Program-made: the position numbers and the translations under genes
DNA from: a virus
Strand: one strand, 5' to 3'
Length of the DNA stretch: 47,511 bases
IMG/VR virus record: IMGVR_UViG_3300046352_000049
Coordinates: 1 to 47,511 of that record
Notes under the pieces: generated by a model
What the model saw: only the letters and a program-made list of their open reading frames with translations
Databases searched by the model: none
Told to the model about the DNA's origin: nothing
Shown: piece by piece, positions 1 to 47,511 of the stretch
Layout: the number at the start of each line of letters is the position of its first letter
Position numbering within the stretch: the first letter of the stretch is position 1

Positions 1-458
1 AGAATTGGCTGGCCTTTCGTGATGCCGTGGGCGGCTACCCGCTGACAAATGAAGCGAACACACTCTGCTGAGAGTTGCTGTTCTGTAATGTCTTCAGGCC
101 CAAATGTTTCAATGTGCTTTGCCATGTCCAGCAGTATTTGGTGTGCTTGCTCATCCGTCAGCGGCTTGCGCTGTGCTGGTGGGGATGTGAGGGGAATTGC
201 TTTGTATCCCTTGGCAGCAAGCAATGGCTCATTCTTTTTGAAAGAAAGTTCTTTTAACTCTGGCTTTTTCCCGCACTGGTGAAGATACGCAATAGGCTCC
301 TGCTCATGCGGCTTCGCCACGGGTGCTGGCTGCTCTGCCAGGGCTTCGCGGGCAGTGTGGATAGCATCACAAGTAGAGATACGTCCAAGACCTGCTTCTT
401 CATACCAACAAAGCTCTGTTAGAACTTTCTTCAGAGCTTCAGTTTGCTTGCTTTGCAT
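1..458 (-). CDS. Modular phage hypothetical protein, C-terminus off the left edge
   Basis: An open frame of 152 codons runs from an ATG off the left edge with no stop. A GAGGG lies upstream as a possible ribosome site, and the ATG overlaps the end of the preceding gene by 20 bases. The protein is hydrophilic, with an N-terminal helix-like part, an EPIAYLHQCG segment near residue 55, a GYKAIPLTSPPAQ hinge and then a KPLTDEQ segment. This EPxAxL...SPPxxxxLTDE layout is typical of mosaic hypothetical proteins of phages and mobile elements of Proteobacteria; no function is known. Codons for residues 55-96 lie in the 127-base repeat shared with the right end of the window. On the closed map the same N-terminus continues at 47511 into a different C-terminus, giving 141 residues. 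The part below base 170 is therefore an alternative tail. Confidence 0.75.
   Translation of the reverse strand, partial: MQSKQTEALKKVLTELCWYEEAGLGRISTCDAIHTAREALAEQPAPVAKPHEQEPIAYLHQCGKKPELKELSFKKNEPLLAAKGYKAIPLTSPPAQRKPLTDEQAHQILLDMAKHIETFGPEDITEQQLSAECVRFICQRVAAHGITKGQPI
170..296. repeat. 127-base direct repeat, left copy
   Basis: This stretch is identical to the last 127 bases of the window. Base 169 (c) differs from 47384 (t), so the match begins exactly here. A perfect repeat of 127 bases at a contig end matches the largest k-mer commonly used by short-read assemblers and usually marks a circular or terminally redundant molecule. It lies inside coding sequence, and both copies are read in the same frame. 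Confidence 0.95.
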
Positions 459-690
459 ATCCAGAACCCTCACTCTGATAAGGTTTAAAGAACTTCATAA
501 TCTTCTGCAAACCATTCACATTATAGTTTGGCAGCTTGTACATACGTTTCTTAATCGTTGTAATAGTGCTAGCAAAGAATGCCTTGTCCTTCTCATTGTC
601 AGCTTTGTCAAAGCTTTGGAATGCAGCTTCCAATTGACCCTGCAACATCAACGATTCTTGCAATGTGTTTGTAACGCCTGATTTGCTCAT
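439..690 (-). CDS. Hypothetical protein, 83 aa
   Basis: Small, charged, probably helical cytoplasmic protein, MSKSGVTNTLQ at the N-terminus, with a basic middle (TTIKKRMYKL, residues 44-53) and no membrane segment or cysteine motif. The ATG overlaps the stop of the gene before it (ATGA), and AAGGA sits six bases ahead, so the start is well supported and translation is probably coupled. It overlaps the start of the modular gene by 20 bases. Not recognised; by position it belongs to the last part of the leftward transcript before the replication genes on the closed map. Confidence 0.75.
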   Translation of the reverse strand: MSKSGVTNTLQESLMLQGQLEAAFQSFDKADNEKDKAFFASTITTIKKRMYKLPNYNVNGLQKIMKFFKPYQSEGSGYAKQAN

Positions 691-935: not shown

Positions 936-1709
936 TTACCCTTGTTCATTGATTTTCTCGCCAAACATTGTAAAAACTTCTACATATTTATTCAATGTTT
1001 CACCAGCAAGGCCACAAGCGGTGTTAACTTCGAGCACATAATATGTATTACGCTTTGCATTGTAAATCATATCCACTGCACCGAAGTCAAGACCTAACTG
1101 CTTGACAGCCATGATAGCTGCCTGCTTAGCGTCATCAGGAACATCAACATCAATGTGTGCATAGATGAATCCGTTACCGTGATTGCGTACTTGCCAGTTC
1201 ACCTTGTCGTCAGCAACATCCTTGTTACGTGCCTTACGCTGAACAAAGAACACCTCGTTACGAAACACATGAAGGCGATATTCGTCAGTCTTAGCAATGT
1301 ACTTGACATACAGCTTGGCATCGTCACTGAGGGAGCTGTTCTCGTCATCCTTATGTACAAGACGGATGCCTTCGCCGCTGTGACCTGTAAGCTTATGTCG
1401 CTCCACTACGATAACACCCTTAGCAAGCCACTTAGAAGCCTCGTCCTTGGACGTTGTGTACTGAGGGATAGGACAGTGGCCATCAAGGGCTTTAAACGTT
1501 TGCAGCTTGTTTGCGGCCTTCTTAATGTTATCGGGGTGATTGAGGATGTAAGGGGCATCAATGTCCCGCTTGACACCAGATGCACCCCAGTTGATGACAG
1601 GAACCTTCAACTTTAGAGCACGTCCCTTGTGCTTGATACGTTTAATACCAAGGGCTCGGGACAATGATTTAGCTGATGCGCTGTATTCGTTGTATGGATA
1701 GATTTTCAT
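936..1709 (-). CDS. ATP-grasp carboxylate-amine ligase (RimK-like)
   Basis: Predicted cytoplasmic ligase of 257 residues that would activate a carboxylate with ATP and join it to an amine. Seen in the protein: PVINWG (37-42) and a central domain with a glycine-containing nucleotide loop (KLTGHSGEGI, 106-115). DEYRLHVF follows (142-149), then the metal-binding end GAVDMIY (210-216) and YVLEVNTACGL (224-234), the acidic/Asn signature of RimK-type ATP-grasp folds. Its ATG overlaps the stop of the amidoligase gene by four bases, so the two are almost certainly made together. In phages with this gene set the ATP-grasp enzyme accompanies amidoligases and glutamine amidotransferases. Its substrate is unknown. 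The assignment to ATP-grasp is strong; peptide ligation rather than another amide bond is inference. Confidence 0.85.
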   Translation of the reverse strand: MKIYPYNEYSASAKSLSRALGIKRIKHKGRALKLKVPVINWGASGVKRDIDAPYILNHPDNIKKAANKLQTFKALDGHCPIPQYTTSKDEASKWLAKGVIVVERHKLTGHSGEGIRLVHKDDENSSLSDDAKLYVKYIAKTDEYRLHVFRNEVFFVQRKARNKDVADDKVNWQVRNHGNGFIYAHIDVDVPDDAKQAAIMAVKQLGLDFGAVDMIYNAKRNTYYVLEVNTACGLAGETLNKYVEVFTMFGEKINEQG

Positions 1710-2767
1710 AGCTCAGCTCCGATATGAGCAATAATACCTTGCCCCACTAAGAGTTTCTCGAGCTTTGCGACTCGACGGACAGGTTCTGGGGCATAGTTGG
1801 CGTGACGCAATTGAGGCACATCATCCATATCCTCTTGTACTGCACGAATAGCTCTGTCCATACGTTGTTTTAAACGCATCTGTTCTGCTTCGTATTGCAT
1901 ACGCACCTCTTCTTCACGTTTGAGGATTTCTAGCTTACGCTGTTCCTTACGTCCTTCGTCGTTAGTGTATGCATATGGCAGCTCCAGAGTGATGGAGAAG
2001 GCATGTCGAATGTCGTTCACCTCGTCCTCATAAGAGAAGAAACGATATTCATCCTGCAATACAGTACCCATGAATTCAGATGGACTCATCTTAACGAATG
2101 CATCATGAATTGCTTGAGGATCTTTGTGTTGCTTAGCAAACTCACGGATGTTATACAGAGCACGTAGCCACGTACTGATATAAGGCACTGAGAGATTACC
2201 TTGCATAGCACGAAACTCTAGGCTACCGTATTGTTTTGTAGCTGCAAGATTGATGGATGCATACTTAGCAGTCTCTTTCGAGAAATAATCTAGCATCTTA
2301 GGGCCTTTGTTGAACAGGCCGTATAACAGCTCAGACAATCCCTCTGCATCTTGCATACGCAGACAGAAACGATTACCGATACGTTCATTCCCGCAATACC
2401 GTACCAATGCATTCTCCAGCAGGAGGTATGTATAAACTGTGTTGAGATATTGATCGAACGTCAAGTCTTGCACATTCATGTGAACATGGACACTGGTGCG
2501 GAACGAGAAGTTCAGCTCAGCATTATTATCTGCCTGATATTTAGCCAGACTCTCCAGCTCCTTGATTGAGTCTTCAAGGGAGTGAGGACGACGGAACACC
2601 CACTCGGCACGACCATGAGGATATTCACCACGGAGGGAGCCGTCATCAACAGTGTTCCAGATATCGTTTTTTGGGACAGCAAGGTTATTACCTTCGCACT
2701 CAATCTCGATACCGAAGTCACCGTCTTGGCGTTTACGCAGCTGCAAAAGTTCGTACAGTTTTGTCAT
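1706..2767 (-). CDS. Amidoligase (glutamine synthetase-like fold)
   Basis: Predicted ATP-dependent ligase of 353 residues. The conserved blocks of the Amidoligase_2 family are visible in order: FGIEIECEG (18-26, metal-binding glutamates), VDDGSLRGEYPHGRAEWVF (40-58), TSVHVHMNV (91-99) and INLAATKQYGSLEFRAMQGN (172-191). The C-terminal 100 residues are rich in Glu, Arg and Lys and look helical (LKREEEVRMQYEAEQMR). Enzymes of this fold form amide or isopeptide bonds. It overlaps the ATP-grasp gene by four bases and the upstream unknown gene by 35. With the second ligase two genes upstream, this cassette holds two glutamine synthetase-fold ligases and one ATP-grasp ligase. The target is unknown. 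Confidence 0.85.
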   Translation of the reverse strand: MTKLYELLQLRKRQDGDFGIEIECEGNNLAVPKNDIWNTVDDGSLRGEYPHGRAEWVFRRPHSLEDSIKELESLAKYQADNNAELNFSFRTSVHVHMNVQDLTFDQYLNTVYTYLLLENALVRYCGNERIGNRFCLRMQDAEGLSELLYGLFNKGPKMLDYFSKETAKYASINLAATKQYGSLEFRAMQGNLSVPYISTWLRALYNIREFAKQHKDPQAIHDAFVKMSPSEFMGTVLQDEYRFFSYEDEVNDIRHAFSITLELPYAYTNDEGRKEQRKLEILKREEEVRMQYEAEQMRLKQRMDRAIRAVQEDMDDVPQLRHANYAPEPVRRVAKLEKLLVGQGIIAHIGAEL

Positions 2768-3350
2768 AGTGATTCTCTACAAGAATTTCAAGGAATTGAT
2801 AAGGAGCATCAAACAGGATACGCCCTGTTGTGGACATACGAGAAGGGATAACACCTACACGTTTTTGCTTGAAGTAGATGTTACGGTTGGAGTCAACAGC
2901 GAATTGCTTATCGAAGGCACAGCTGCCACCATTCTCTTTTGCAATCGTGATAGCATCGCGGAATGTCGGGTAGTCATTGAGCAATGCCTGACCCCATCCA
3001 CGGACATTCATAGACATAACTTGGTCATAGGCAACACGCCAGCGATCGTTCCGATGTTCCAGTACATGAACAGCTACATTGCTTGTAGTGAGCCCGATAC
3101 TGAATCGTCGTGCGGGATTACGTACAGCATAGAATGCATGACCGTTGTTGTTGATGAAGCCGATACGTCCCAACGAAGGCTTGAAGTCAACTTGCTTGAA
3201 TGGGACGATGTTCTTCTTACCTGAAATTAGGCCAAGCATGTGCATGTCTTTGTTACGATCAACACAAAGGACACGAGCTGGTCGTCCCTTGTACATGATG
3301 ATGGATTTTGCATACAGCTGGTCAAGGTCAGCAGCTGAGATATCAACCAT
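2733..3350 (-). CDS. Unknown conserved protein of the ligase cassette
   Basis: About 205 residues from the ATG chosen here, which follows a GAGGTG ribosome site and overlaps the last codons of the COOH-NH2 ligase gene; an ATG ten codons upstream has no such site. The N-terminus (VDISAADLDQLYAKSIIMYKGRPARVLCV) looks beta-rich. The middle has FINNNGHAFYAVRNPARRFSIGL and the end YQFLEILVENHYDKTVRTF. It has no membrane segment and no recognisable catalytic motif. It lies between two predicted ligase genes, overlapping both, so it probably serves the same pathway, perhaps as a scaffold, carrier or acceptor protein. Not recognised beyond that. Confidence 0.75.
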   Translation of the reverse strand: MVDISAADLDQLYAKSIIMYKGRPARVLCVDRNKDMHMLGLISGKKNIVPFKQVDFKPSLGRIGFINNNGHAFYAVRNPARRFSIGLTTSNVAVHVLEHRNDRWRVAYDQVMSMNVRGWGQALLNDYPTFRDAITIAKENGGSCAFDKQFAVDSNRNIYFKQKRVGVIPSRMSTTGRILFDAPYQFLEILVENHYDKTVRTFAAA

Positions 3351-4134
3351 AGCACACCTCAATTCCTTCAGCTTTGACAATCTTCATAGCTTCTTTCTTG
3401 TTGCTAGTGTTAATGATTTCTTGAATGTCACCGTACTTGGCGGATAAATCGTTACCATTAGACAATGCATTCATGCCAGCCAAGGTGTTACGATAGACCC
3501 AACGCATCAGTGCCTCACTCTTGAGCCATGCGTTAGAGAGGGTACGATACTCAACGCCATAAGGTTTGAATCGGCAGCAACCTGCCTTGCCATACATCTC
3601 ACGGCGCTCAGTGTCAGAGTCATACGCAAGGCTTGGAAGGCCGAGATAGAAGTCCATCTGTTTGACAGCAGCTTGACCCATGCTCACATGACCGGGATCG
3701 TTAATGTCTTGATTGTTAGTCCATCCGATATGCACATGACCTGATGCTGTACGCATAGGACGATTGCCATTAGGCTTATTGTTAACAGTCCCGTGCCATG
3801 CGTTGTAGTCAGGATCACAGCCCAGCTCGAGAGCTTCCATTGGTTGCTGAGCGATGTAGTCCTTGTCAAAGTGAGCCACAGGTACAGTGACTACTTCGTA
3901 ATCAGGAACCATCAACTTCATGGTGTTGAATACGTCTTGCACGTTAATGCAAAACTCATCTTCAGATGCAGCAGGGTCGATGTTAAATTCGAGAGCCATA
4001 CCGTCCACTTGGACAGCACCTCGATTAACCTTCTGCGGATTCTTTTTATCACCACGAATCAAACCATACGCTGATTTGAATACACCATTTTGTTTGACAA
4101 ACACTTCAGGGTCACAGCCCACAAGAAATTTCAT
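3343..4134 (-). CDS. phiEco32-type COOH-NH2 ligase (type 2)
   Basis: A 263-residue ligase with a glutamine synthetase-like fold. The motifs are GCDPEVFV (6-13), VQVDGMALEFNIDPA (41-55), RTASGHVHIGW (128-138) and PYGVEYRTLSNAWL (191-204), with the acidic and histidine residues expected to hold ATP and metal. This pattern is that of the family named after phage phiEco32 (PF14395). It should join a carboxyl to an amino group at the cost of ATP. It sits just after the class II amidotransferase gene, whose ammonia or aminated product it might use. The overlap with the following gene implies coupled translation. Family assignment is strong; the substrate is not known. Confidence 0.85.
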   Translation of the reverse strand: MKFLVGCDPEVFVKQNGVFKSAYGLIRGDKKNPQKVNRGAVQVDGMALEFNIDPAASEDEFCINVQDVFNTMKLMVPDYEVVTVPVAHFDKDYIAQQPMEALELGCDPDYNAWHGTVNNKPNGNRPMRTASGHVHIGWTNNQDINDPGHVSMGQAAVKQMDFYLGLPSLAYDSDTERREMYGKAGCCRFKPYGVEYRTLSNAWLKSEALMRWVYRNTLAGMNALSNGNDLSAKYGDIQEIINTSNKKEAMKIVKAEGIEVCYG

Positions 4135-4180
4135 ATTAACCTCGAAAAGAAAAAGGAATTAGATTAGGATAGTTACAACA

Positions 4181-5527
4181 TTAGTTACGCACACCTCCTG
4201 CAATTTGAACATACTCAGTAACTTCATGGTCACTGACGCAGCTTGAACACAAGCATTGCCCTTCAGTAGTCAACGCATGACGATCAGATGGGAGCACACT
4301 GCTGCTGCACCACACGCAGTCACCGTACTTACCAATCCAGTCATTCATGTTATACATCTGTGCATCATGGCCGGGATAGACGGCATCATCAACAGGATCA
4401 ACCCATGGAGCATCGTCCCACTTGACGCTGGAACCCAACACCTTGTAGTACATGCCTTCTTTGCTGTCAATCTTAAGTTCACCAATGTCAACAATCAGCT
4501 CTTCACCTAAGCGTTTGTGTGGACGGTCCACTTTACGAGGGGTGTAGTAGAGACGGATGCTGGCAGATGGCATACTGTCATCAAAGCAGGCAAAGTAAGG
4601 AGCACCGTTCTTGTCAGAGCAAACTTCCAATAGTTCAACACGTACATTCTTAGTGTAGGCGTAGCCATTTTTTGAAGTCTGAGACAGGGTTGTTTCGGGA
4701 ACCACCCCCTGCTTTTTTACTTCGGTAGCAGTGAGAGGAATAACTTTGGCTGTTGTCTTGTTCTCGATCTGAGTGTGATTGACGAAGGTTTTTGTACTCT
4801 GCTGTGCATAACCTGCATATACAGGCTTGTAGGAAGCAGCAGCGTTGCGAGCAAGAGCCTTACCCAGTACACCGTTACGATCAACAGGGATGCTGTAGTG
4901 GACATTCTCTTTGAACAACTCAGGTACGCTGTGCTTGACGTTGTTACGTCCCAGAGCAGCTTCAATCATCCATGATTCTGATGCCCAGTACATGAACTTC
5001 TTGTCGTCTGTCATAGCCCAGAACAAGGGACGCTGATCGTTACGAAGGAAGTTGATTGATTCGTTGATCTTGTCCCACCACACCAATGCCCATGCACCGG
5101 CCATGTTCTCCAATGCGTCCTTCAAACCCATCTTGTCGATGTGGTGATACAGATTCTCGCTGTCAACAGTGAAGTCTTGTTGATCTTTGAGCTTCCACTT
5201 AGATGTCAATGTACCGTTGTGTACACCTACCAGTGTGGTGAAGTCAAATGGATGAGCGTTCTTGTTGGTGACATTACCCACTGTAGCATAGCGGTTGTGT
5301 CCGATGATGCAACGCTGAGTACCTGACATTGACTTAGTGTGTCGCTTGGTGTCAAACAACAAGTAAGGGTCGCCTAGTTCTTTGGCAATCTTCACCTCAC
5401 CTACACGAGGGACAACAGCAATACCTGTACTGTCAGTACCTCGCAAGCTGTCCATGATGAGAAGCTGATTGAAGATTTTCTCTTCAGTGAAAGTTGTTGG
5501 GCCAACTACGCCTACGATGCCGCACAT
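4181..5527 (-). CDS. Class II glutamine amidotransferase with C-terminal zinc ribbon
   Basis: The protein begins MCGIVGVVG, so Cys2 becomes the N-terminal nucleophile of a class II (Ntn-type) glutaminase. Supporting motifs are SLRGTDSTGIAVV (28-40), HNRYATVGNVTNKNAHPF, VGVHNGTL and the GAWALVWWD and RNDQRPLFW segments of the GlmS/PurF/asparagine synthetase glutaminase domain. It would release ammonia from glutamine for an amidation. The central 200 residues lack a recognisable phosphoribosyl, SIS or synthetase domain. The C-terminus has CVWC (404-407) and CLCSSC (425-430), a likely zinc ribbon, which is unusual for this family. It lies next to the ligase genes and is probably the nitrogen donor of the cassette. 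The acceptor is unknown. Confidence 0.85.
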   Translation of the reverse strand: MCGIVGVVGPTTFTEEKIFNQLLIMDSLRGTDSTGIAVVPRVGEVKIAKELGDPYLLFDTKRHTKSMSGTQRCIIGHNRYATVGNVTNKNAHPFDFTTLVGVHNGTLTSKWKLKDQQDFTVDSENLYHHIDKMGLKDALENMAGAWALVWWDKINESINFLRNDQRPLFWAMTDDKKFMYWASESWMIEAALGRNNVKHSVPELFKENVHYSIPVDRNGVLGKALARNAAASYKPVYAGYAQQSTKTFVNHTQIENKTTAKVIPLTATEVKKQGVVPETTLSQTSKNGYAYTKNVRVELLEVCSDKNGAPYFACFDDSMPSASIRLYYTPRKVDRPHKRLGEELIVDIGELKIDSKEGMYYKVLGSSVKWDDAPWVDPVDDAVYPGHDAQMYNMNDWIGKYGDCVWCSSSVLPSDRHALTTEGQCLCSSCVSDHEVTEYVQIAGGVRN

Positions 5528-5549
5528 AGAGTGTTCTCGATTGAATTGA

Positions 5550-5813
5550 TTAAATGTGATCTTCTTCGACCACTGGTTTGTAAATTGTATTCAGGGTTTC
5601 AAATGAACCATCTGAATTCTTCTTGATGACAATCGATGTTGTTACAGGCCCTTGACCTAATCTCGGGTGATTCATGGCGTATACACCAGCAATCTCGTAT
5701 GAGTTATCTTTACCAAGATACTTTTTATACCTTGCAACAATCTCGGGTTCAGTAAGTGTACGCTTGAGAAAGCGAGCGTTATTAACGTACTCAACTACAG
5801 GCTTAGTGGACAT
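5550..5813 (-). CDS. Hypothetical protein, 87 aa
   Basis: Small soluble protein (MSTKPVVEYVNN at the start) with a helical N-terminal half containing LTEPEIVARYKKYLG and a beta-like C-terminal half (GPVTTSIVIKKNSDGSFETL). It has no cysteine, signal or membrane segment. The ATG overlaps the end of a 34-codon proline-rich frame, and AAAGAG lies nearby as a weak ribosome site. It is between the amidotransferase gene and two small membrane or proline-rich genes in the leftward transcript. Not recognised. Confidence 0.7.
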   Translation of the reverse strand: MSTKPVVEYVNNARFLKRTLTEPEIVARYKKYLGKDNSYEIAGVYAMNHPRLGQGPVTTSIVIKKNSDGSFETLNTIYKPVVEEDHI

Positions 5814-5907
5814 AAACTTTCTCTTTCAACGGGAAGGGTTGAGGTTGATTGTAAGGAGTGGGGAAGGGCCACGTTGGTGGCTGAGGTGTGTTGACGGGAG
5901 CTATCAT
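5803..5907 (-). CDS. Possible proline-rich micropeptide, 34 aa
   Basis: A 34-codon frame read directly from the gap: it starts MIAPVNTPQPPTWPFPTPYN, ends in KEKVYVH and has ten prolines. Its ATG is three bases after the stop of the 58-residue membrane gene, and its own stop overlaps the start of the next gene, the arrangement of a coupled cistron. It has only a weak ribosome site (GTGG). It may be a real small protein or a chance frame in a short spacer; the exact fit between two genes is the main argument for it. Confidence 0.35.
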   Translation of the reverse strand: MIAPVNTPQPPTWPFPTPYNQPQPFPLKEKVYVH

Positions 5908-5910
5908 GGT

Positions 5911-6087
5911 TTACCACATATGCATGATGCCGAATTGAATGAGAGACACCACAATCAAGCCAAATGCCAGCCATTGTGAAGCCTCAATGAATCGTGTGAG
6001 CTTGGGTTTGTAATACAATGTATTGTCCCACACACTGTCAATAACGAAACAGATAGCCATGATGAGGATACCGAGAGCGAAGTACAT
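5911..6087 (-). CDS. Small two-span membrane protein, 58 aa
   Basis: Found by reading the gap before the class I amidotransferase gene. It has a perfect AAGGAG seven bases ahead of the ATG. The first segment (ALGILIMAICFVI, residues 4-16) and the second (WLAFGLIVVSLIQFGIMHMW, 39-58) are hydrophobic and separated by a polar loop with charged residues (DNTLYYKPKLTRFIEA). It is predicted to sit in the inner membrane. Its place 11 bases after the class I amidotransferase gene links it to the ligase cassette. It might anchor or export something, or act in superinfection exclusion; nothing in the sequence decides this. Confidence 0.65.
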   Translation of the reverse strand: MYFALGILIMAICFVIDSVWDNTLYYKPKLTRFIEASQWLAFGLIVVSLIQFGIMHMW

Positions 6088-6098
6088 TTAGATTCTCC

Positions 6099-6737
6099 TT
6101 AGCAAGTGCAACCGAGGGGCGATGTGACCAAATACTTTTCCAGCAAGCCAGAGAAGTAAGCATGCATGTTGGTATATTTAATACCACCAAATTCAGGGTG
6201 AGGCTGAAAGCACAGGCAATTCGTATCGGGGTAGTACACCACCTCAATGTCCTCACTAGACACCTCGCGCTTGAATACACCCTCTTCAAACCACAGGCGT
6301 TCACCCTTAAGGCATGCTGTAGCCACCAGGACGGCCTTGGAGGAGGGTTTCATCATCTGGTGATGGGTAGATGACACCCACACCATTTCGCCTGTCTCAA
6401 CGTCTGTAATCAGATGGTCAGCACAATGGCTACGTACATCCTGATACATCTCACCACCTGACATAACGTTCAGGAACTGAGCACCACGGCAGATACCCAC
6501 CATAGGAATGTCACGTTCCTTGCAGATATTGAAGATGTCAGCTTCATGACGATCACGATAGACGTTACATCCTGTTGTCTGATGGCGCTCATGTCCATAG
6601 AACGAAGGAGTTACGTCTTCACCACCTGTGAAGCAGACAAGTTCAGCATGGTCAATACTGTCAACGACATTGTATTGCATCTGTTCAAACATGTATTGGT
6701 AGCCTGAACTACCGTTGACAATGTATACGTTCTTCAT
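6099..6737 (-). CDS. Class I glutamine amidotransferase / gamma-glutamyl hydrolase (peptidase C26-like)
   Basis: A 212-residue protein with the class I glutaminase fold. FTGGEDVTPSFYG (36-48) resembles the PuuD/C26 start motif; GICRGAQFLN (81-90) carries the nucleophile Cys83; FQPHPEF (177-183) supplies the catalytic His180 and Glu182. Relatives hydrolyse gamma-glutamyl amides, such as gamma-glutamyl-GABA or polyglutamate tails, or donate ammonia from glutamine. In this cassette it could remove a gamma-glutamyl group made by the ligases or trim their product. It overlaps the preceding gene by four bases (ATGA). The catalytic triad is complete, so an active enzyme is likely; the substrate is inference. 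Confidence 0.85.
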   Translation of the reverse strand: MKNVYIVNGSSGYQYMFEQMQYNVVDSIDHAELVCFTGGEDVTPSFYGHERHQTTGCNVYRDRHEADIFNICKERDIPMVGICRGAQFLNVMSGGEMYQDVRSHCADHLITDVETGEMVWVSSTHHQMMKPSSKAVLVATACLKGERLWFEEGVFKREVSSEDIEVVYYPDTNCLCFQPHPEFGGIKYTNMHAYFSGLLEKYLVTSPLGCTC

Positions 6738-7726
6738 TTGATTTCCTTTGCAAAAAGATTAGCTACTCGGATGAGGTTGTCAGGGTTGTCGAACTTGATA
6801 GAATCGAAGGATGCTCCCCATTCTCGTTGTTCCTTCGTAACAATGTGCTTGAGCTTTGCCGTCACGTAATTAAACAAGCTTACGTCTGTCTTCACAAGAG
6901 CTTGTTGAATCAACGGATCAATTCTGTAATCATGTCCGCTTGCCTCTTGATATGACACGCCGGAACACTTAGCAAATTTTCCTGTGTTAAAGAAACTGGC
7001 ATATGCGTCCATTGTCATAGTGGCATTGTTAAGAACGTGATGACCTCCGGGGAAGAGGTTAAAAGAATTCAAACCACGTGACAATTGAGAGACAATGTAT
7101 GCTACGTTAGGGCTGTAATTCAAATCCAGCAAACGTTGGAAGATAGGCAGGCAATTATCAAACTCAGAGCCTGTACGAAGGGCTATAGCAGCCGCTACGC
7201 AGAACCAAAACTCTTTGGTGAGGTCAAGGTATACACCGCTGGTATAAACCTCTTCAAGAGGCTTCTGAATGAACGCATCTTTCCAAGGGCTCTCAGTGAG
7301 GATGTATTGAACATGACGCTTGTAACGTTCAGCTGCTTCACCCTTGTATTTGGCAACGTGTCCTGATACGTTCAATGCAACAGCAAGCAGCTTTTTACCC
7401 TGTTCTGCGGCAGAATAGTAACGTCCACCGTATGTCAATCGAGCATGACAAACATCTTTAACTTGGAAACGACGAAGACCGCCTTCAAATTCCAATGCAT
7501 AGCTGCAAACGCTTACACCTGCTTTAGTAACCTTATCTGTCAGTTCTTGCAACAGGGGAACACCAACAGCAGGTTCCTCTTGTTCCTTACGAACGAAAGA
7601 AGATGATTGATAACGACGTCCTGCAATGAAAATAAATTCATTAACTACACGTTCAACATAGTAAGGCACATCCTTACGAAGCATACCTTTACCTTGATAA
7701 AATACCTTATCGCCTTCGGCAAACAT
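6734..7726 (-). CDS. Hypothetical protein, 330 aa
   Basis: Starts MFAEGDKVFYQGKGM, a short beta-rich segment like those binding nucleic acid or partner proteins (residues 1-45). It is followed by a mostly helical body with TYGGRYYSAAEQGKKLLAVAL and, towards the C-terminus, HVLNNATMTMDAYASFFNTG. AAGGAAAT lies seven bases before the ATG. No catalytic motif was recognised. It overlaps the class I amidotransferase gene by four bases, and the 115 bases ahead of it hold a hairpin element and the probable transcription start region for this block. It could be a further member of the ligase cassette or an unrelated early protein. Confidence 0.7.
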   Translation of the reverse strand: MFAEGDKVFYQGKGMLRKDVPYYVERVVNEFIFIAGRRYQSSSFVRKEQEEPAVGVPLLQELTDKVTKAGVSVCSYALEFEGGLRRFQVKDVCHARLTYGGRYYSAAEQGKKLLAVALNVSGHVAKYKGEAAERYKRHVQYILTESPWKDAFIQKPLEEVYTSGVYLDLTKEFWFCVAAAIALRTGSEFDNCLPIFQRLLDLNYSPNVAYIVSQLSRGLNSFNLFPGGHHVLNNATMTMDAYASFFNTGKFAKCSGVSYQEASGHDYRIDPLIQQALVKTDVSLFNYVTAKLKHIVTKEQREWGASFDSIKFDNPDNLIRVANLFAKEIK

Positions 7727-10344: not shown

Positions 10345-11076
10345 ATGTCAAAGATCGTACTGAACGATGTAACGAACTTAAATGCTCTTTCTGTAATTAA
10401 CGCTAATTTTGATAAGCTTGAACAAGAGCTACAGAGTAAAGTGTTATATCGGGACAACCCTGCAGGAGAGCCTAATGCGTTAGAGAGTGATGTGGATGCT
10501 AATGGACATAGCATCTATAATATTGAAAACCTCTCTATTACTGGAGGGTTTACTGTAGACGGTGAGAACGTTGGAGCGTACATTAGTCAAGCTCAGACCG
10601 CTGCTGATGATGCAGAGGCTAGTGCAATTGCTGCTGGTATTGCGGCTGCAAGCGTAGGTGTGAGTGCTAGTAATGCTGCTGCCAGTGCTGCTGCTGCTGC
10701 TGCTACAGCTACTACTGTAGCTGCGGAAGTAGATAATGCAGAAGCGGCTGCTATATCGGCTGCTGCTAGTGCTGTAACTGCTACTAATGCAGCTCAAACA
10801 GCTGCTGATGATGTGCTTAATTCTGTTCGTATTCCTACCGACTTGGTGGGAGCTGCAGGTCAGTTCTTGCAAGTTAGTATGGACGAAGCAGGTTTTGAAC
10901 TTGTTGGATCAGTTGCTGCTCCTGTATTTTTTGGTTTTAAACTAAGCACCGATCAATCTAGTTTGATTATGGATTTTGGTCGAGACGACTACAACGTAGA
11001 AGAGTATGCCACATACACCGTTTTGGAAAATGTGGGTTTTGAAATTCAAAAGAATAATTTGGTGATTACACTATGA
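10345..11076 (+). CDS. Tail fibre adaptor / short tail fibre protein
   Basis: A 243-residue protein with AAAGGAAAAG before its ATG. The first 60 residues (LNDVTNLNALSVINANFDKLEQEL, then ESDVDANGHSIYNIENL) are the N-terminal virion-attachment pattern common in podovirus and other tail fibres. Residues about 80-155 are an alanine-rich repeat region (AASAAAAAATATTVAAEVDNAEAAAIS) expected to form a trimeric coiled coil. The C-terminus is a small beta-rich domain (FKLSTDQSSLIMDFGRDD). It overlaps the next gene by four bases and heads the rightward arm, so it probably links the two propeller fibres to the tail. The attachment role is inferred. Confidence 0.8.
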   Translation: MSKIVLNDVTNLNALSVINANFDKLEQELQSKVLYRDNPAGEPNALESDVDANGHSIYNIENLSITGGFTVDGENVGAYISQAQTAADDAEASAIAAGIAAASVGVSASNAAASAAAAAATATTVAAEVDNAEAAAISAAASAVTATNAAQTAADDVLNSVRIPTDLVGAAGQFLQVSMDEAGFELVGSVAAPVFFGFKLSTDQSSLIMDFGRDDYNVEEYATYTVLENVGFEIQKNNLVITL

Positions 11077-12701
11077 AGATTGATATCAATTCAATTGGCT
11101 ATCGTTGGAAGGGCGTATACTCTCCTTATACGGCGTATTCAGAACGAGACGTTGTATTCAAACAAGGCGGAGCATACGTCCAACGAAGCGGTGTTATGGT
11201 GCCCTTTGCATTAGGTCAACTGGATGTGGTTACACCTGGTGCAATCCTTACAGGTGGTGATGAGAAATTTGGAATCTACGGGACAGTACTCCATTCCAAC
11301 GGTGCAGCTACAGTAGACTTTCGGTTTATGGGCGAGCGTAACGGTACAGTTGCCACCGGTTTAATGGAAGGAATTGACTCCGGCAGCTGGGGTATGGCTG
11401 CTAATCAATACCAAGCTATTATGAACTCAGGTATTGTACGTGCATGGGGGTCTAATGATTCTGGGCGTAATGGTCTTGGTTCTAGTGATGGGAATATTTA
11501 TAAACCCTCAACAGTTCCTTTTCCTGTAGGCACTCCTCCTATTAAAAAAATTAAAGCTGGTTGGATTTCTACTTACTATATCGATGCTTCAGGTGGACTG
11601 TGGGTAACAGGTATCAACAACGATAACCAACAAGGTACTAACACCAATAACCGTATTCCTATCAAACTTAATGGGTACGGGGCTCTTCCTTTGAATGCAA
11701 AAGTTACAAAAATTGTAACTAGCTATGACTATTATGCTAATCGTTCAATAGGTTGTCTTACAGAAGATGGTCGTGTATATGTCTGGGGCGCCAATAACTA
11801 TGGTCAACTTGGTTTAGGTAATACTACTTCTCAAGCGACACCTGTGCTTTTACCTCTCAGTGTAACACTTCCTATGAAAGATTTGTATTTTTCAGCAGGA
11901 ACGTATGGTGTTGGAGGTTTTATTACAACCGCTGGTCAACTTTACGCCTGCGGACACGATCGTAGTGGTCACGGATACACTACATCCATTCCAACATTGT
12001 TAGCTCCCTGGGATGATGGTGCAACTGTAAAACTGTTTAAATGCTCTGAATCCGATAACCATGCTGTGGTTGACCCTCAGTATATGCACCGTCAACTTGC
12101 AGTGCTTGATAATGGTGAGTTGTGGATTTGGGGTGCCGATTCAGGTCAAGTAACCGACGGGCAGACAGATAATAACAACGTTCCAAAACGCGTACTGACT
12201 GGTGTAAAAGATGCATGGTCATGGTCTGGCGGCTACTCGCGTTGTATTGCCCTGATGCAAGATGGCACTGTTAAAGCAGTAGGGACTGAAAGCTACCGTA
12301 TTAATGGTAACGTATCAGGTTCAAACACCACCGCCTGGACCACTATTGGTAACAGTTATCTGACTAACGTTACTAAGATTTTAGCAATTGGCGGTACTTA
12401 TGGCACAACTGCTTTGGCGTTACGCTCGAACGGTACAGCTGTAGGATGGGGTGCGGGTGCTCAAGGAAGCCATGGCAACGGTCGAGTCGATGAAAATAAT
12501 TTACCTGATACATTTGTAATGTTGAATAGTAATATTATTGATATTGGCATGAGTGGTTACTGCTCCGGAGGTGACTATATCCTCACTACATACTTTTTAA
12601 CATCGGACGGAAGTGTTTATGCTTCTGGATCAGGTAGTCAATACGTGAATGGTTTGTTTGAAAACAACTCCGTATCTATTCCTAAAAAAATTATTTTCTA
12701 A
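11073..12701 (+). CDS. RCC1-type beta-propeller tail fibre, first copy
   Basis: A 542-residue protein. After a short attachment region (GYRWKGVYSPYTAYSERDVVFKQGGAYVQRSG) come repeated blades of the RCC1/alpha-tubulin-suppressor type. Examples are IVRAWGSNDSGRNGLG, LWVTGINNDNQQGTNT, VYVWGANNYGQLGLGNTT, LWIWGADSGQVTDG and AVGWGAGAQGSHGNG, each about 50-60 residues long. RCC1 blades fold into a propeller that binds other molecules. In this place, between a fibre adaptor and lysis genes, it is most likely a receptor-binding protein. The next gene is a paralogue. Confidence 0.8.
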   Translation: MKIDINSIGYRWKGVYSPYTAYSERDVVFKQGGAYVQRSGVMVPFALGQLDVVTPGAILTGGDEKFGIYGTVLHSNGAATVDFRFMGERNGTVATGLMEGIDSGSWGMAANQYQAIMNSGIVRAWGSNDSGRNGLGSSDGNIYKPSTVPFPVGTPPIKKIKAGWISTYYIDASGGLWVTGINNDNQQGTNTNNRIPIKLNGYGALPLNAKVTKIVTSYDYYANRSIGCLTEDGRVYVWGANNYGQLGLGNTTSQATPVLLPLSVTLPMKDLYFSAGTYGVGGFITTAGQLYACGHDRSGHGYTTSIPTLLAPWDDGATVKLFKCSESDNHAVVDPQYMHRQLAVLDNGELWIWGADSGQVTDGQTDNNNVPKRVLTGVKDAWSWSGGYSRCIALMQDGTVKAVGTESYRINGNVSGSNTTAWTTIGNSYLTNVTKILAIGGTYGTTALALRSNGTAVGWGAGAQGSHGNGRVDENNLPDTFVMLNSNIIDIGMSGYCSGGDYILTTYFLTSDGSVYASGSGSQYVNGLFENNSVSIPKKIIF

Positions 12702-12711
12702 AAAGGATTAA

Positions 12712-14373
12712 ATGTCTTCAATCAATTTAGGCAAAATTGCCTTCACGTATAAAAATACGTATTCTGCGGTTATCGTCTATAACAAACAAGATGTTGTTTC
12801 CTATAACGGAGATAGTTTTGTATGCTTGGTAGATGGAACTGTTGGTGTAACACCTTCTGACGCCCATGCAGCGTGGGACTTGTTTGCTCAAGGTACAACC
12901 GGTGTTTCTTCCTCTTCTGGTGAAATCATTTACAATAACGGAACTCAGCTGGTGGCTCTTCCTCCAGGTGTTTCAGGTCAGGTCCTTACAGTTAATCCAT
13001 CAGGATTGCCAATCTGGGCTACTCCTGATATTCGTACCGGTTCAAAAGTTAGCAAGCTAATTGACAATCAAGTTAACGGTGCCATCAGCTCGTACCGTCG
13101 TACCGCTGTCATCATGAACGATGGTGCAGTGCGTTGCTGGGGTAATAACGAAAACTACATGCTGGGCGAGGGAACCTTGAACCACCGTAGTCAACCAGGA
13201 CGTGTTGGTTTTCCTGTAGGATTCCCTGGCGCTTCTAAAATTTATCAGAGCTATAATTCAGCAGCTTACTGTATTGATACAGCTGGTCAGCTCTGGGCTT
13301 GGGGATATAATGGCTATGGTCAACTTGGTACTGGCAACACCACAGACCAAAAAGTACCTGTAAATATCAGCCTTGTTGCTACAGGTAGTTTGTTTGGTAA
13401 ACAAGCAAGTCAAGTCATTCTTGCGGGCGGTATTGAAGGGTATCAATCAGTAATGGTTATTTGTACCGACGGTACTCTTCATGCTGCAGGTTATAATGGT
13501 TACGGTCAGCTAGGACAGGGTAATACCTCAGCGTATACTTTGTTTGTTCAAGTCCCTATTGTAACAAACGTTGTAAGTGCTCGTCTGGGAAGAGAGCGAT
13601 ACACTGCTTGTTATGCCGTACAAGCGGATGGTAAACTGTACTCTTGGGGGTATAATGCTGACTACCAACTTGGTGATAATACTACTACTGCAGCTTCCTT
13701 TCCAATTCAGCGTACTAACGGTAGTTTGTCTGGGAAAACAATTGTCAAAGTTTTTGCTTCATATCAACAAGCCTTTGCTCTAGCTAGTGACGGAACCCTT
13801 CACGGATGGGGTGTCAATACAACATATGGTAGTTTGGGTTCTGGCGATTTCCTTACTAAAACTATCCCTGTACAAGTAAACACAGCTGTCGCAGATGTGT
13901 ATACCAACGGTTATGACTATCCATTAACTATTATTAAGAAAACCGATAGTACCATCTGGGCTGCTGGTGCTGGTAACTACGGTGCCAACGGTACAGTGGG
14001 ACAAGTTGCTTCTGGTTCTTGGATTCAGATTCCTGTTGGAGGCGCAGTTAATAAAGTGCGCATTGGAGGAACAGGTAGTTATAATTACTGTTTTGCTCTT
14101 ATGACAAATGGTACGGTCAAGGCCTGGGGATATAATGGTAACGGTGTTTTGGGATTGGGTCACGTACTTGTGGTGAACGGTTCTACCCCTCAAACCATGC
14201 CTATCCCGATCCGTACAGTTACCGATATTGCTGTGTATAGCGCTAGTTTGGAACAAAACGGTATTTTTCTTTTGGATGATGGTCAAATTTCTGTAACAGG
14301 ATACGGTGGTAATTATGCTAATACTGATCCGTTTTCAGCTATTGCCTCTGTACCTACACCTGTGATTTTCTAA
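12712..14373 (+). CDS. RCC1-type beta-propeller tail fibre, second copy
   Basis: A 553-residue protein with AAAGGATTAA before its ATG. The N-terminus (FTYKNTYSAVIVYNKQDVVSYNGDSFVCLVDGTVGVTPSDAHAAWDLFAQG) resembles small carbohydrate-binding modules often seen in tail fibres. A linker (STSSGEIIYNNGTQ-like) follows, then RCC1 blades: VRCWGNNENYMLGEG, LWAWGYNGYGQLGTGNTT, LHAAGYNGYGQLGQGNTS, LYSWGYNADYQLGDNTT, LHGWGVNTTYGSLGSG and VKAWGYNGNGVLGLG. It probably forms a receptor-binding propeller; two different copies would allow two receptors or a mixed fibre. It overlaps the next gene by one base (TAATG). Confidence 0.8.
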   Translation: MSSINLGKIAFTYKNTYSAVIVYNKQDVVSYNGDSFVCLVDGTVGVTPSDAHAAWDLFAQGTTGVSSSSGEIIYNNGTQLVALPPGVSGQVLTVNPSGLPIWATPDIRTGSKVSKLIDNQVNGAISSYRRTAVIMNDGAVRCWGNNENYMLGEGTLNHRSQPGRVGFPVGFPGASKIYQSYNSAAYCIDTAGQLWAWGYNGYGQLGTGNTTDQKVPVNISLVATGSLFGKQASQVILAGGIEGYQSVMVICTDGTLHAAGYNGYGQLGQGNTSAYTLFVQVPIVTNVVSARLGRERYTACYAVQADGKLYSWGYNADYQLGDNTTTAASFPIQRTNGSLSGKTIVKVFASYQQAFALASDGTLHGWGVNTTYGSLGSGDFLTKTIPVQVNTAVADVYTNGYDYPLTIIKKTDSTIWAAGAGNYGANGTVGQVASGSWIQIPVGGAVNKVRIGGTGSYNYCFALMTNGTVKAWGYNGNGVLGLGHVLVVNGSTPQTMPIPIRTVTDIAVYSASLEQNGIFLLDDGQISVTGYGGNYANTDPFSAIASVPTPVIF

Positions 14374-19841: not shown

Positions 19842-19917
19842 TGGCATATAGCTCAGACGGTAGAGCGCATGACTGTTAATCATGATGTCCTTGGTTCGAC
19901 CCCAAGTTTGCCAGCCA
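19842..19917 (+). tRNA. tRNA-Asn (anticodon GTT), CCA encoded
   Basis: Complete cloverleaf. The acceptor TGGCATA pairs with TTTGCCA with one T-T mismatch; the D arm is GCTC/GAGC. The anticodon arm CATGA-CTGTTAA-TCATG places GTT in the loop, and the T arm is CTTGG-TTCGACC-CCAAG. Discriminator G and CCA are encoded. U1-A72 with G73 is the usual identity pattern of bacterial tRNA-Asn. It is the only tRNA I found. It sits in the gap before the scaffold gene and would be transcribed with the structural genes, needing processing from the mRNA. Confidence 0.93.
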
Positions 19918-45394: not shown

Positions 45395-47053
45395 TTAGTT
45401 TATCTCGTTAAAGAGTCCGGTTGAATTATCCCAATAGAGCTTGTAACGACCTGTCTCACCAAACTCACGGTCTTCTAGCAATACTAGAGTTCGTAGATTG
45501 CGTTCTTCAGGGCCGAGATTTGGGTCTCGATTTCCTTCAAGTCCGAGCATGAGATTGCACGAGCGAGCCATAGCACGGGAACCAGCAAACTGGCTAGACA
45601 GAACTTCGCCGCCTCGCTCATGAGGAGGCCCAGAATCAGGATTACGCAGATGACAGAAGATAAAGATAACCACATTAAGGTCGAGGGCCATAGCACTAAG
45701 TTCTTGAGCAATTTCTTGAAGCTTGACGTTTGCACTTGCAGCATCCATTCCGTTAGTTAAGTTGGTAATAGGGTCGATGATGATGACCTTGCATCCCTCA
45801 CTAGCAGCAGAACGTATATCAGCTTTGAGCGTGTCAAAACCTACGTGCTGATACAAGTTGAGCATGAACAATCGGTCATGTAGCACCTCCCCTGCTTTGT
45901 CATATGCACTGTCGTCGAATGGCTTGGTAGGGTCGTGAAAGAACTTACCTACTAGCTTACCCGCAACGAGTTTATATGTCTTCTTGTTGCTCTCTTCAGG
46001 CTTGACAAGAAATACTTTCCATCCGTGTTCCTTGATAAAATGTGCTGCAAGGGTGTTAACGACCTCCGACTTACCTTGCTTCTGACCAGCACCGATGTAA
46101 ATGGTCTCTCCCAGTCGTATCCCACGAGTTGCCTTAGTGATGTGCTCCCAGGGCCACGATACACCGAATGTAGGCGGTTCTTTACCAGCTTCGTGTAAGT
46201 CATTCCCCGATACCAAACGAGTGTTCTTTGGTTTCTGGGCGTTGAACTGACATGCATTGTAAGCTGCTTTAGACCTTCCGTCGATAAGGCATTGGTTAGC
46301 ATCTTTGGATGGTAGAGATGCAACCATCGCATCAGGGGCAATACGTAATACATCTTCTACAGCTTTCTTACCTGGAGCGTCATTGTCGAATACAAGAATG
46401 ATTTCCTTGAAGTGTTTACGGATTTCAGGGAGCATCTTAGCGAATTGCTTAGATGCACCACCGGAGCCATTACTTAGAGACACTACAGCAGGGTTGTAAT
46501 CTGCATATTGTGTACCCTTGTTATGTTCCTTGAAGATTTGAAACAATGCTACTGCATCACATTCACCCTCTGTAACGAATAGCTTCTTTCCTCCCGTTTG
46601 TACTGCTTGTTGCCAGCCGAAGAAGTCAGCGCCCTTAGTCGAGCCAATGGCCCACATACGCTTGTTCTCAATCAGCCGAACTTTGTAACCAATCAGCTCA
46701 TCATCTACATAGTAGGGGTAATAATGAGTGACAGGTGTAGCACCATCAGTCTCAGACAATCCAATCTTAACACCAAAGTATTCAAGATATTCCTGTTTAA
46801 GCTTGCGATCAGGAAGAGATACAGTTTTGTATGTACCAACCTCCTTGATCTCATCCTCAATTTCTTCCTTGCTTTTAACTAAGGATTGAGGCTTGTAGTC
46901 TTTAGGTTTGTCGTGATAAGGATCAGATACATACGTTCCACATGAGAAGCAGAATCCATCGTATGTACCATCTCCTTTATCAAACACCTGCAATCCATTA
47001 GCCGAATTGCATTTGTCAGTACGGTGAGGAAGTTTTTGTACACATTTAGACAA
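45395..47053 (-). CDS. DNA primase-helicase (T7 gp4-like)
   Basis: About 552 residues from a TTG start that overlaps the end of the previous gene by eight bases and follows AAAGGGAAA; an ATG 19 codons upstream lacks a ribosome site and would overlap by 65. Features: a zinc knuckle with H10, C15, C35 and C38 (CFSCG), TOPRIM residues FVTEGECDA (Glu163) and VFDNDAPG (Asp223, Asp225), and a DnaB-type helicase with Walker A GAGQKQGKS (321-329), VIIIDPITNLTNG and the HLRNP loop. It unwinds and primes phage DNA for the family A polymerase. Confidence 0.92.
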   Translation of the reverse strand: MSKCVQKLPHRTDKCNSANGLQVFDKGDGTYDGFCFSCGTYVSDPYHDKPKDYKPQSLVKSKEEIEDEIKEVGTYKTVSLPDRKLKQEYLEYFGVKIGLSETDGATPVTHYYPYYVDDELIGYKVRLIENKRMWAIGSTKGADFFGWQQAVQTGGKKLFVTEGECDAVALFQIFKEHNKGTQYADYNPAVVSLSNGSGGASKQFAKMLPEIRKHFKEIILVFDNDAPGKKAVEDVLRIAPDAMVASLPSKDANQCLIDGRSKAAYNACQFNAQKPKNTRLVSGNDLHEAGKEPPTFGVSWPWEHITKATRGIRLGETIYIGAGQKQGKSEVVNTLAAHFIKEHGWKVFLVKPEESNKKTYKLVAGKLVGKFFHDPTKPFDDSAYDKAGEVLHDRLFMLNLYQHVGFDTLKADIRSAASEGCKVIIIDPITNLTNGMDAASANVKLQEIAQELSAMALDLNVVIFIFCHLRNPDSGPPHERGGEVLSSQFAGSRAMARSCNLMLGLEGNRDPNLGPEERNLRTLVLLEDREFGETGRYKLYWDNSTGLFNEIN

Positions 47054-47255
47054 TACGTTTCCCTTTCCCAAGTGGCCGTCTAAGTTTATCACGTGATGAT
47101 GCAGTAGCATATTTCATCACATACTCATCAATGTACTCCCAGTGGTCCGCTCCTGTTTGTGAATAGAATAACCAACCTGTCCAAAAATCCCTCTTTCTTA
47201 CACCGAAAGAACCATTCTCAAACTGAACTGTATGTGGCTTGAATGGATTATACAT
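47046..47255 (-). CDS. Hypothetical protein, 69 aa
   Basis: Starts at MYNPFKPHTVQFENGSFGVRK, whose ATG overlaps the end of the modular gene and has AAGGAGAAG ahead. It is rich in Trp, Tyr and Phe (FWTGWLFYSQTGADHWEYIDEY) with a basic end. No membrane span or motif. The overlaps with both neighbours indicate coupling with the primase-helicase gene. Related small proteins with FGVRK...WTGW...YLD blocks are frequent in phages; function unknown. Confidence 0.75.
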   Translation of the reverse strand: MYNPFKPHTVQFENGSFGVRKRDFWTGWLFYSQTGADHWEYIDEYVMKYATASSRDKLRRPLGKGKRIV

Positions 47256-47511
47256 TGTTCTTCTCCTTGAGTTTGGCTTCAATGACTCGGGCAATATCAA
47301 TCCGGTGTTGTTCCCATGAAACTGTGTAATCAAGGCTTCGCCATGCTTGTTCAAGTTCCTCATCCGTCAGCCCAACCCATGTGTGCTGTGCTGGTGGGGA
47401 TGTGAGGGGAATTGCTTTGTATCCCTTGGCAGCAAGCAATGGCTCATTCTTTTTGAAAGAAAGTTCTTTTAACTCTGGCTTTTTCCCGCACTGGTGAAGA
47501 TACGCAATAGG
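47248..47511 (-). CDS. Modular phage hypothetical protein, C-terminal part reaching the right edge
   Basis: Open frame from the right edge to a TAA. The first 42 codons lie in the 127-base repeat and equal the frame near 170-296. It then continues HTWVGLTDEELEQAWRSLDYTV and ends IDIARVIEAKLKEKNNV, a common ending of mosaic phage proteins. On the closed map codon 54 of the left part is followed here, giving one 141-residue protein. This is the version compatible with the downstream overlap. Confidence 0.8.
   Translation of the reverse strand, partial: PIAYLHQCGKKPELKELSFKKNEPLLAAKGYKAIPLTSPPAQHTWVGLTDEELEQAWRSLDYTVSWEQHRIDIARVIEAKLKEKNNV
47385..47511. repeat. 127-base direct repeat, right copy
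   Basis: Identical to 170-296. The window ends with the repeat, so the molecule is probably circular or terminally redundant, with 47,215 bp of unique sequence. Confidence 0.95.

Follow-up and report, generated by a model that had tools for sequence, protein, structure and literature searches.

The viral record IMGVR_UViG_3300046352_000049 from IMG/VR (positions 1 to 47,511, here called the window, 47,511 nucleotides) carries a run of ligase and amidotransferase genes that is almost certainly a phiEco32/RIO-1-type amidoligase cassette. The features that define this type are all present, namely a PF14395 ligase, a PF12224 amidoligase, an ATP-grasp ligase, a class II glutamine amidotransferase (GATase), and the shared gene order. 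The genes of the cassette are identified, their active sites are intact, and their linkage is obligate. Two unannotated protein families, X and UP330, also belong to the cassette, and their addition is new here. The cassette itself is not new, contrary to the original prediction for this DNA, since it is already published as a peptidoglycan-modification module (PMC5498523, PMC11945000, PMC10580990, PMC3890496).

All named cassette genes are true open reading frames on the minus strand and form one tightly overlapping run. UP330 overlaps the class I protein by 4 bp, the COOH-NH2 ligase overlaps X by 8 bp, X overlaps the amidoligase by 35 bp, and the amidoligase overlaps the ATP-grasp gene by 4 bp (ATGA). 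Most of the starts are preceded by a purine-rich, ribosome-binding-like sequence. The gene calls are backed by curated (Pfam) and phage-specific (PHROG) profile models, and residue conservation was assessed across as many as 89 relatives. The five enzymes first proposed for this region are real, with near-invariant catalytic residues, and chance similarity is ruled out by the model scores together with catalytic columns conserved at 100%. The unit was originally drawn from 936 to 6737; those genes stand, but the unit reaches 7726 with UP330 added upstream. A hydropathy scan finds no membrane segment in any cassette enzyme, as expected if they act on cytosolic precursors.

The cassette contains three ligases. 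The COOH-NH2 ligase type 2 (3343..4134, minus strand) is glutamine-synthetase-like and matches PF14395 (E 1.4e-7) and phrog_3815 (E 4.5e-90). It has the motifs D8PE, E49, GH133VH135, and E195YR197, its residues D8, E10, E49, H133, H135, E195, and R197 are kept at 100%, and it evolves about as slowly as the primase. The Amidoligase_2 (1706..2767, minus strand), also glutamine-synthetase-like, matches PF12224 (E 4e-7) and phrog_7469 (E 2.9e-60). Its motifs are G19xE21xE23xE25, H94VH96, and E184FR186, with E21, E23, E25, H94, H96, E184, and R186 at 100%. Both Pfam families had been anticipated, whereas PF14398 and PF15632, suggested for the ATP-grasp protein, are absent at E <= 0.1. That protein (936..1709, minus strand) is a RimK-like ligase, with phrog_2599 at E 1.9e-83 and Pfam ATP-grasp_3 and RimK above their cut-offs. 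Its ATP-grasp domain is most similar to RimK and has the Asp-Glu-Asn metal site, in which the metal/ATP residues Asp213 and Asn229 are kept at 100% and Glu227 at 98%. Profile matches in the PDB are led by S6--L-glutamate ligases (E 3.7e-12), followed by graspetide (peptide) ligases, cyanophycin synthetase, and D-Ala-D-Ala ligase. The window's enzyme differs from RimK, the nearest solved structure, in lacking its N-terminal part and in belonging to a multi-ligase cassette. In some relatives (loci L014, L020, L025, L028-L031, L035, L044, and others), an ATP-grasp gene stands between the class I protein and the class II GATase, either as a second copy besides the usual one or in its place. A ligase has thus been copied or relocated inside the cassette.

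Two further enzymes have amidotransferase folds. The class II GATase (4181..5527, minus strand) matches PF13522 (E 3.7e-19) and phrog_4736 (E 1.1e-76), and its residues C2, R79, N104, G105, and D122 are kept at 98%. Its C-terminal end is zinc-ribbon-like, with C404, C407, C427, and C430 kept at 97-98%; no mention of this four-Cys end (residues 404-430) was found in published descriptions of the cassette. No GlmS or PurF partner or synthase domain is recognised in it. The second enzyme, the class I GATase-fold protein (6099..6737, minus strand), had been proposed as either a class I GATase or a gamma-glutamyl hydrolase. The hydrolase alternative is favoured. Peptidase_C26 is above its cut-off at E 2.5e-21 and phrog_7218 matches at E 2.4e-48, while the GATase profile PF00117 stays below its cut-off and scores far worse. 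The triad C83, H180, and E182 and the residues H125-H126-Q127 of the STHHQ motif are kept at 100% in 74 relatives, and the profile places gamma-glutamyl hydrolases first (PuuD, SpuA, Lin1909). These share the Cys-His-Glu triad and the STHHQ motif with the window's protein, which differs from them in being phage-encoded and always accompanied by ligases. The class I protein thus appears closer to gamma-glutamyl hydrolases than to ammonia-channelling GATases. The presence of an S6-ligase-like ATP-grasp enzyme, a C26 hydrolase, and, in some relatives, an accessory gamma-glutamyl cyclotransferase points to glutamate or gamma-glutamyl chemistry, as judged from the families.

Protein X (205 amino acids, 2733..3350, minus strand) lies between two ligases and is the unannotated protein that had been seen to overlap both of them. 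It is a real gene, with a match to phrog_11055 (E 1.4e-15), and the ATG at 3350 is a better choice of start than the TTG at 3380. X is found in 88 of the 89 loci compared, the sole exception being a contig that ends just past the ligase. The first X profile was seeded by gene position. A profile rebuilt from the window and metagenomic relatives only still matches the isolates LAh_6 (E 2.6e-10), PaP3 (9.8e-6), SU10 (2.8e-5), and 7-11 (6.4e-4), and profile-profile comparison gives E 1.8e-12 over 166 residues. The AlphaFold2 model of X is confident, with a pLDDT (predicted local distance difference test) score of 93. A fold search gives no PDB match at E <= 0.001; the N-terminal strands weakly resemble SH3-like, PWWP, Tudor, and KOW domains.

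UP330 is an unannotated protein of 330 amino acids (6734..7726, minus strand) that lies just beyond the region first described. It is found in 74 of the 89 loci, and most of the remaining loci are contigs cut short. Cys93, Ser146, Arg184, Glu188, and His229 are invariant or near-invariant, and Cys93, Arg184, Glu188, and His229 look like a candidate active site. The AlphaFold2 model, likewise confident (pLDDT 91), shows an SH3-like part at the N-terminus and after it a domain that lacks a PDB counterpart; the fold search at E <= 0.001 returns no PDB match, only the SH3-like sub-domain being recognised. Its structural relatives are uncharacterised viral proteins, and those with names come from phiEco32-, RIO-1-, and Zobellviridae-type phages. 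X and UP330 are the fastest-evolving proteins of the cassette, yet both are under purifying selection, with a ratio of nonsynonymous to synonymous substitution rates (dN/dS) of 0.25-0.34 where not saturated (0.25-0.31 for UP330).

The conservation of the block was followed in 89 loci, comprising 80 viral contigs from a scan with the ligase profile, eight annotated isolates, and the window. The genes are kept together in the same order in related phages, as had been expected. The commonest order is UP330, class I protein, class II GATase, COOH-NH2 ligase, X, amidoligase, ATP-grasp ligase, and primase, and neighbouring cassette genes overlap or sit a few bases apart. Isolates with the cassette include CVT22, Klyazma, O4, Kuravirus SU10, PaP3, Vibrio BA6, Salmonella 7-11, Aeromonas LAh_6, and Salinivibrio CW02. 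The COOH-NH2 ligase occurs in more than 300 sequenced phage records, and the block is present in hundreds of phages of 45-100 kb, so it is not remarkable in a 47 kb genome, contrary to the first impression. A gene for gamma-glutamyl cyclotransferase is linked to the block in 16 of the 89 loci, and also in CW02 and HP1. It is absent from the window's cassette and is an accessory rather than a defining member.

A cassette-blind sample gives the same picture. Among 53 distinct loci fetched by the neighbouring primase, each with at least 7.5 kb upstream, 48 have all five core genes, one has four, and four have none. The cassette therefore behaves as an obligate module, present or absent nearly as a whole, which some Zobellviridae do without. 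In two of the four cassette-less loci the primase match is remote, at about 28% identity. The remaining pair consists of Vibrio phage 464E53-1, which is annotated as Zobellviridae, and a contig with a primase that shares 93% identity with that of 464E53-1. Beside its helicase, 464E53-1 has an AAA ATPase and coiled-coil or membrane genes; apart from the AAA ATPase, the genes in the cassette's place give no informative function. Primase/helicase matches are split over two open frames in L049, L056, L069, L077, and L088, suggesting a split gene or an insertion.

Several searches outside the conserved genes gave no lead. A substrate peptide encoded within the cassette is ruled out as a carrier, because no small open reading frame in the gaps occurs in more than 17 of the 89 loci; those present are HNH nucleases, SH3-like proteins, or lineage-specific genes. 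Among the small genes noted earlier, the predicted membrane protein of 58 amino acids (5911..6087, minus strand) is recovered as such, but the 87-amino-acid protein (5550..5813, minus strand) is not notably proline-rich and occurs in only 4 loci. Neither is a conserved member of the cassette. A cellular relative with telling neighbours was also discarded as a guide, as the 7 matches in 84,980 genomes all lie on contigs bearing the phage cassette. PADLOC finds no match between the cassette and models of known or candidate defence systems, in a library that excludes anti-defence proteins.

The link to phiEco32-type phages, proposed at the outset, is correct, and the cassette is shared with them. 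In SU10, a phage of this type, the COOH-NH2 ligase, an X-like protein, Amidoligase_2, the class II GATase, and a RimK-like ATP-grasp ligase stand in one block, as in the window. In contrast, the SU10 GATase follows the amidoligase, the ATP-grasp ligase and GATase are longer, and a C26 hydrolase was not found. Phages of the phiEco32 type have two upstream genes in place of UP330, and in 7-11 and LAh_6 both are UP330 relatives. The UP330 profile finds the 7-11 pair at E 1.4e-7 and 1.2e-5 and the LAh_6 pair more weakly, and its link to the upstream genes of SU10 and PaP3 is not significant by sequence. The LUZ24/PaP3-type phages (Bruynoghevirus; UFV-P2, PaP3) share the overlap of ligase, X, and amidoligase, the class II GATase, and an ATP-grasp gene before the primase, but the GATase follows the amidoligase, a cyclotransferase is present, and a C26 hydrolase was not found. 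The window's families, order, and position before the primase/helicase recur in the blocks of the RIO-1/HP1 Zobellviridae podoviruses (PMC5498523) and of PA11, CVT22, O4, and CW02. The window differs from the RIO-1/HP1-type blocks in lacking the cyclotransferase, and published descriptions of these blocks do not single out X and UP330 as core.

The literature has linked the cassette to the cell wall for some time. PMC10580990 credits Iyer et al. 2009 with the suggestion that the phiEco32 enzymes modify the cell wall against superinfection. PMC5498523 uses the title 'Peptidoglycan Modification Cassette' and lists PA11, CW02, tf, LUZ24, PaP3, 7-11, phiEco32, and RIO-1. The peptidoglycan and superinfection reading is thus a published hypothesis (PMC5498523, PMC11945000, PMC10580990), to which PMC11945000 adds wall weakening for lysis. 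In HP1, a member of the Zobellviridae, the predicted peptidoglycan-modification genes are transcribed immediately upon infection (PMC7082346), a timing more in keeping with superinfection exclusion or takeover than with preparing for lysis. Directed evolution of Bruynoghevirus FJK gave missense changes in the amidoligase and GATase genes in both sequenced evolved isolates (PMC11450229). This suggests that selection acts on the cassette, and does not reveal its function.

A mechanism in which peptidoglycan precursors are the acceptor ranks first among the readings, although it is held tentatively and at a little below an even chance. The core of the cassette consists of the class II GATase, the COOH-NH2 ligase, X, Amidoligase_2, and the RimK-like ATP-grasp ligase, with UP330 and the C26-type gamma-glutamyl hydrolase as near-constant members in the family and the cyclotransferase as an accessory in some relatives. 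The pathway would run in the cytosol at an early stage of infection. In it, the three ligases (the RimK-like one and the two glutamine-synthetase-like ones) may sequentially add glutamate-type amino-acid residues or ammonia to carboxylates on the peptide that acts as acceptor, the class II GATase would supply ammonia from glutamine, and the C26 hydrolase, with the cyclotransferase where present, would remove gamma-glutamyl groups and so edit the product. X and UP330 may be subunits for acceptor recognition or transfer. This chemistry of ligases, GATase, and hydrolase is predicted from their families, and the early proposal of a pathway that builds and trims an amide-linked product fits these enzyme classes. 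More tentatively, the acceptor would most likely be a host envelope peptide, such as the stem peptide of a peptidoglycan precursor, and the altered wall would serve superinfection exclusion.

Several points weigh against peptidoglycan precursors as the acceptor. The cassette has no protein that matches a UDP-MurNAc-binding or Mur-ligase family, and RimK-like enzymes are known chiefly as protein modifiers. PDB profile searches give no significant relative for the COOH-NH2 ligase (best E 0.39) or for Amidoligase_2 (best E 0.25), so that the substrate class rests on motifs. Vibrio phage 464E53-1, which is close by terminase DNA, lacks the entire cassette; the module is thus not essential to the Zobellviridae lifestyle. 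The literature yielded no experiment that demonstrates the product or acceptor. A host protein, such as ribosomal protein S6, a translation factor, or RNA polymerase, may instead receive glutamate-type or amidated side chains for takeover, an unlikely reading but one with several points in its favour. The ATP-grasp enzyme is closest to RimK, an S6--L-glutamate ligase, as is also indicated by phrog_2599, and the HP1 cassette is expressed immediate-early, ahead of the takeover genes. X and UP330, with their SH3-like parts, evolve faster than the enzymes, as recognition subunits might, and phage ATP-grasp ligases of the R2K clade have been proposed as protein modifiers (PMC4431377). A single RimK-like enzyme would be enough for this task, however, and the combination of three ligases, a supply of ammonia, and a gamma-glutamyl hydrolase points to a product of greater complexity; the cassette also has no conserved phage-encoded substrate peptide, and no target is known. 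It is also possible, if doubtful, that a cassette of at least seven parts, with X as a recognition subunit and UP330 as a thiol-dependent transferase or hydrolase of new fold, uses its three ligases to attach a new amide or isopeptide modification, open to editing, to a host macromolecule that is not peptidoglycan, with X and UP330 setting the acceptor.

The other readings are less probable. A soluble gamma-glutamyl or peptide metabolite, which would block a defence signal or act as a counter-ion or cofactor, is improbable. Enzymes such as the C26 hydrolase and the accessory cyclotransferase typically belong to soluble gamma-glutamyl metabolism, and linked ligases frequently make peptide metabolites (PMC4431377), but the block has no conserved transporter or tailoring enzyme, and the defence-system models gave no match within the limits of their library. 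Slightly more improbable is a role in auxiliary metabolism, in which host glutamine and peptide nitrogen would be recycled for making nucleotides. Resource recycling was suggested in PMC5498523, the cassette has two glutamine-type amidotransferase folds, and the window's genome also codes for ribonucleotide reductase and thymidylate synthase. Against this, three ATP-consuming ligases fit salvage poorly, no GlmS or PurF synthase domain was recognised in the class II GATase, and the strict module with X and UP330 points to a single dedicated product. That the cassette would protect phage DNA from restriction by hypermodifying its bases with amino acids or peptides is the least likely rival and very improbable, even though thymines decorated with amino acids occur in other phages and the block adjoins primase/helicase and replication genes. 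No Pfam or PHROG family of thymine hypermodification, such as those of the pyrophosphorylase or kinase types, matches the cassette proteins or the UP330 relatives, which rules out UP330 as an enzyme of this kind. Moreover, the DNA of the cassette-bearing phage tf is cut by RsaI, HpaI, EcoRV, SmaI, and HaeIII and was sequenced via cloning (PMC3517423), which argues against bulk modification.

The window is a single virus record. Its last 127 bases (47385-47511) are identical to bases 170-296, a copy that lies inside the reading frame 3-473 (minus strand), but bases 1-169 differ from the sequence that precedes the end copy. This end repeat indicates that the window is probably a near-complete genome. 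The gene content is that of a Zobellviridae-like podovirus, with terminase, head-tail adaptor, major head protein, DNA polymerase, primase/helicase, and sigma factor. The terminase and primase are nearest to Zobellviridae, synteny is also shared, and comparison of terminase DNA puts a Vibrio phage of the Zobellviridae closest among isolates. If one reads on past the contig ends, the DNA primase/helicase (45395..47110, minus strand) follows the cassette, the place that it also has in the relatives; it is a flank rather than a cassette member. Two adjacent plus-strand genes at 11073-12701 and 12712-14373 match phage 'regulator of chromosome condensation' (RCC1-like) families, and the second also matches tail fiber families; this tandem at 11073-14373 looks like host-recognition or tail proteins. 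A tRNA-Asn (GTT) is located at 19842-19917 (plus strand) within the structural run, between the head-tail adaptor and the next head genes.

The cassette is among the most widely conserved enzyme modules of podoviruses with Gram-negative hosts, and no paper was found that shows its product since the 2009 prediction. The analysis adds X and UP330 to the module, widening its definition, and shows that it is distributed in a nearly all-or-none manner. The obligate gene list defines a minimal set for expression or deletion, and the naturally cassette-less Zobellviridae can serve as controls.

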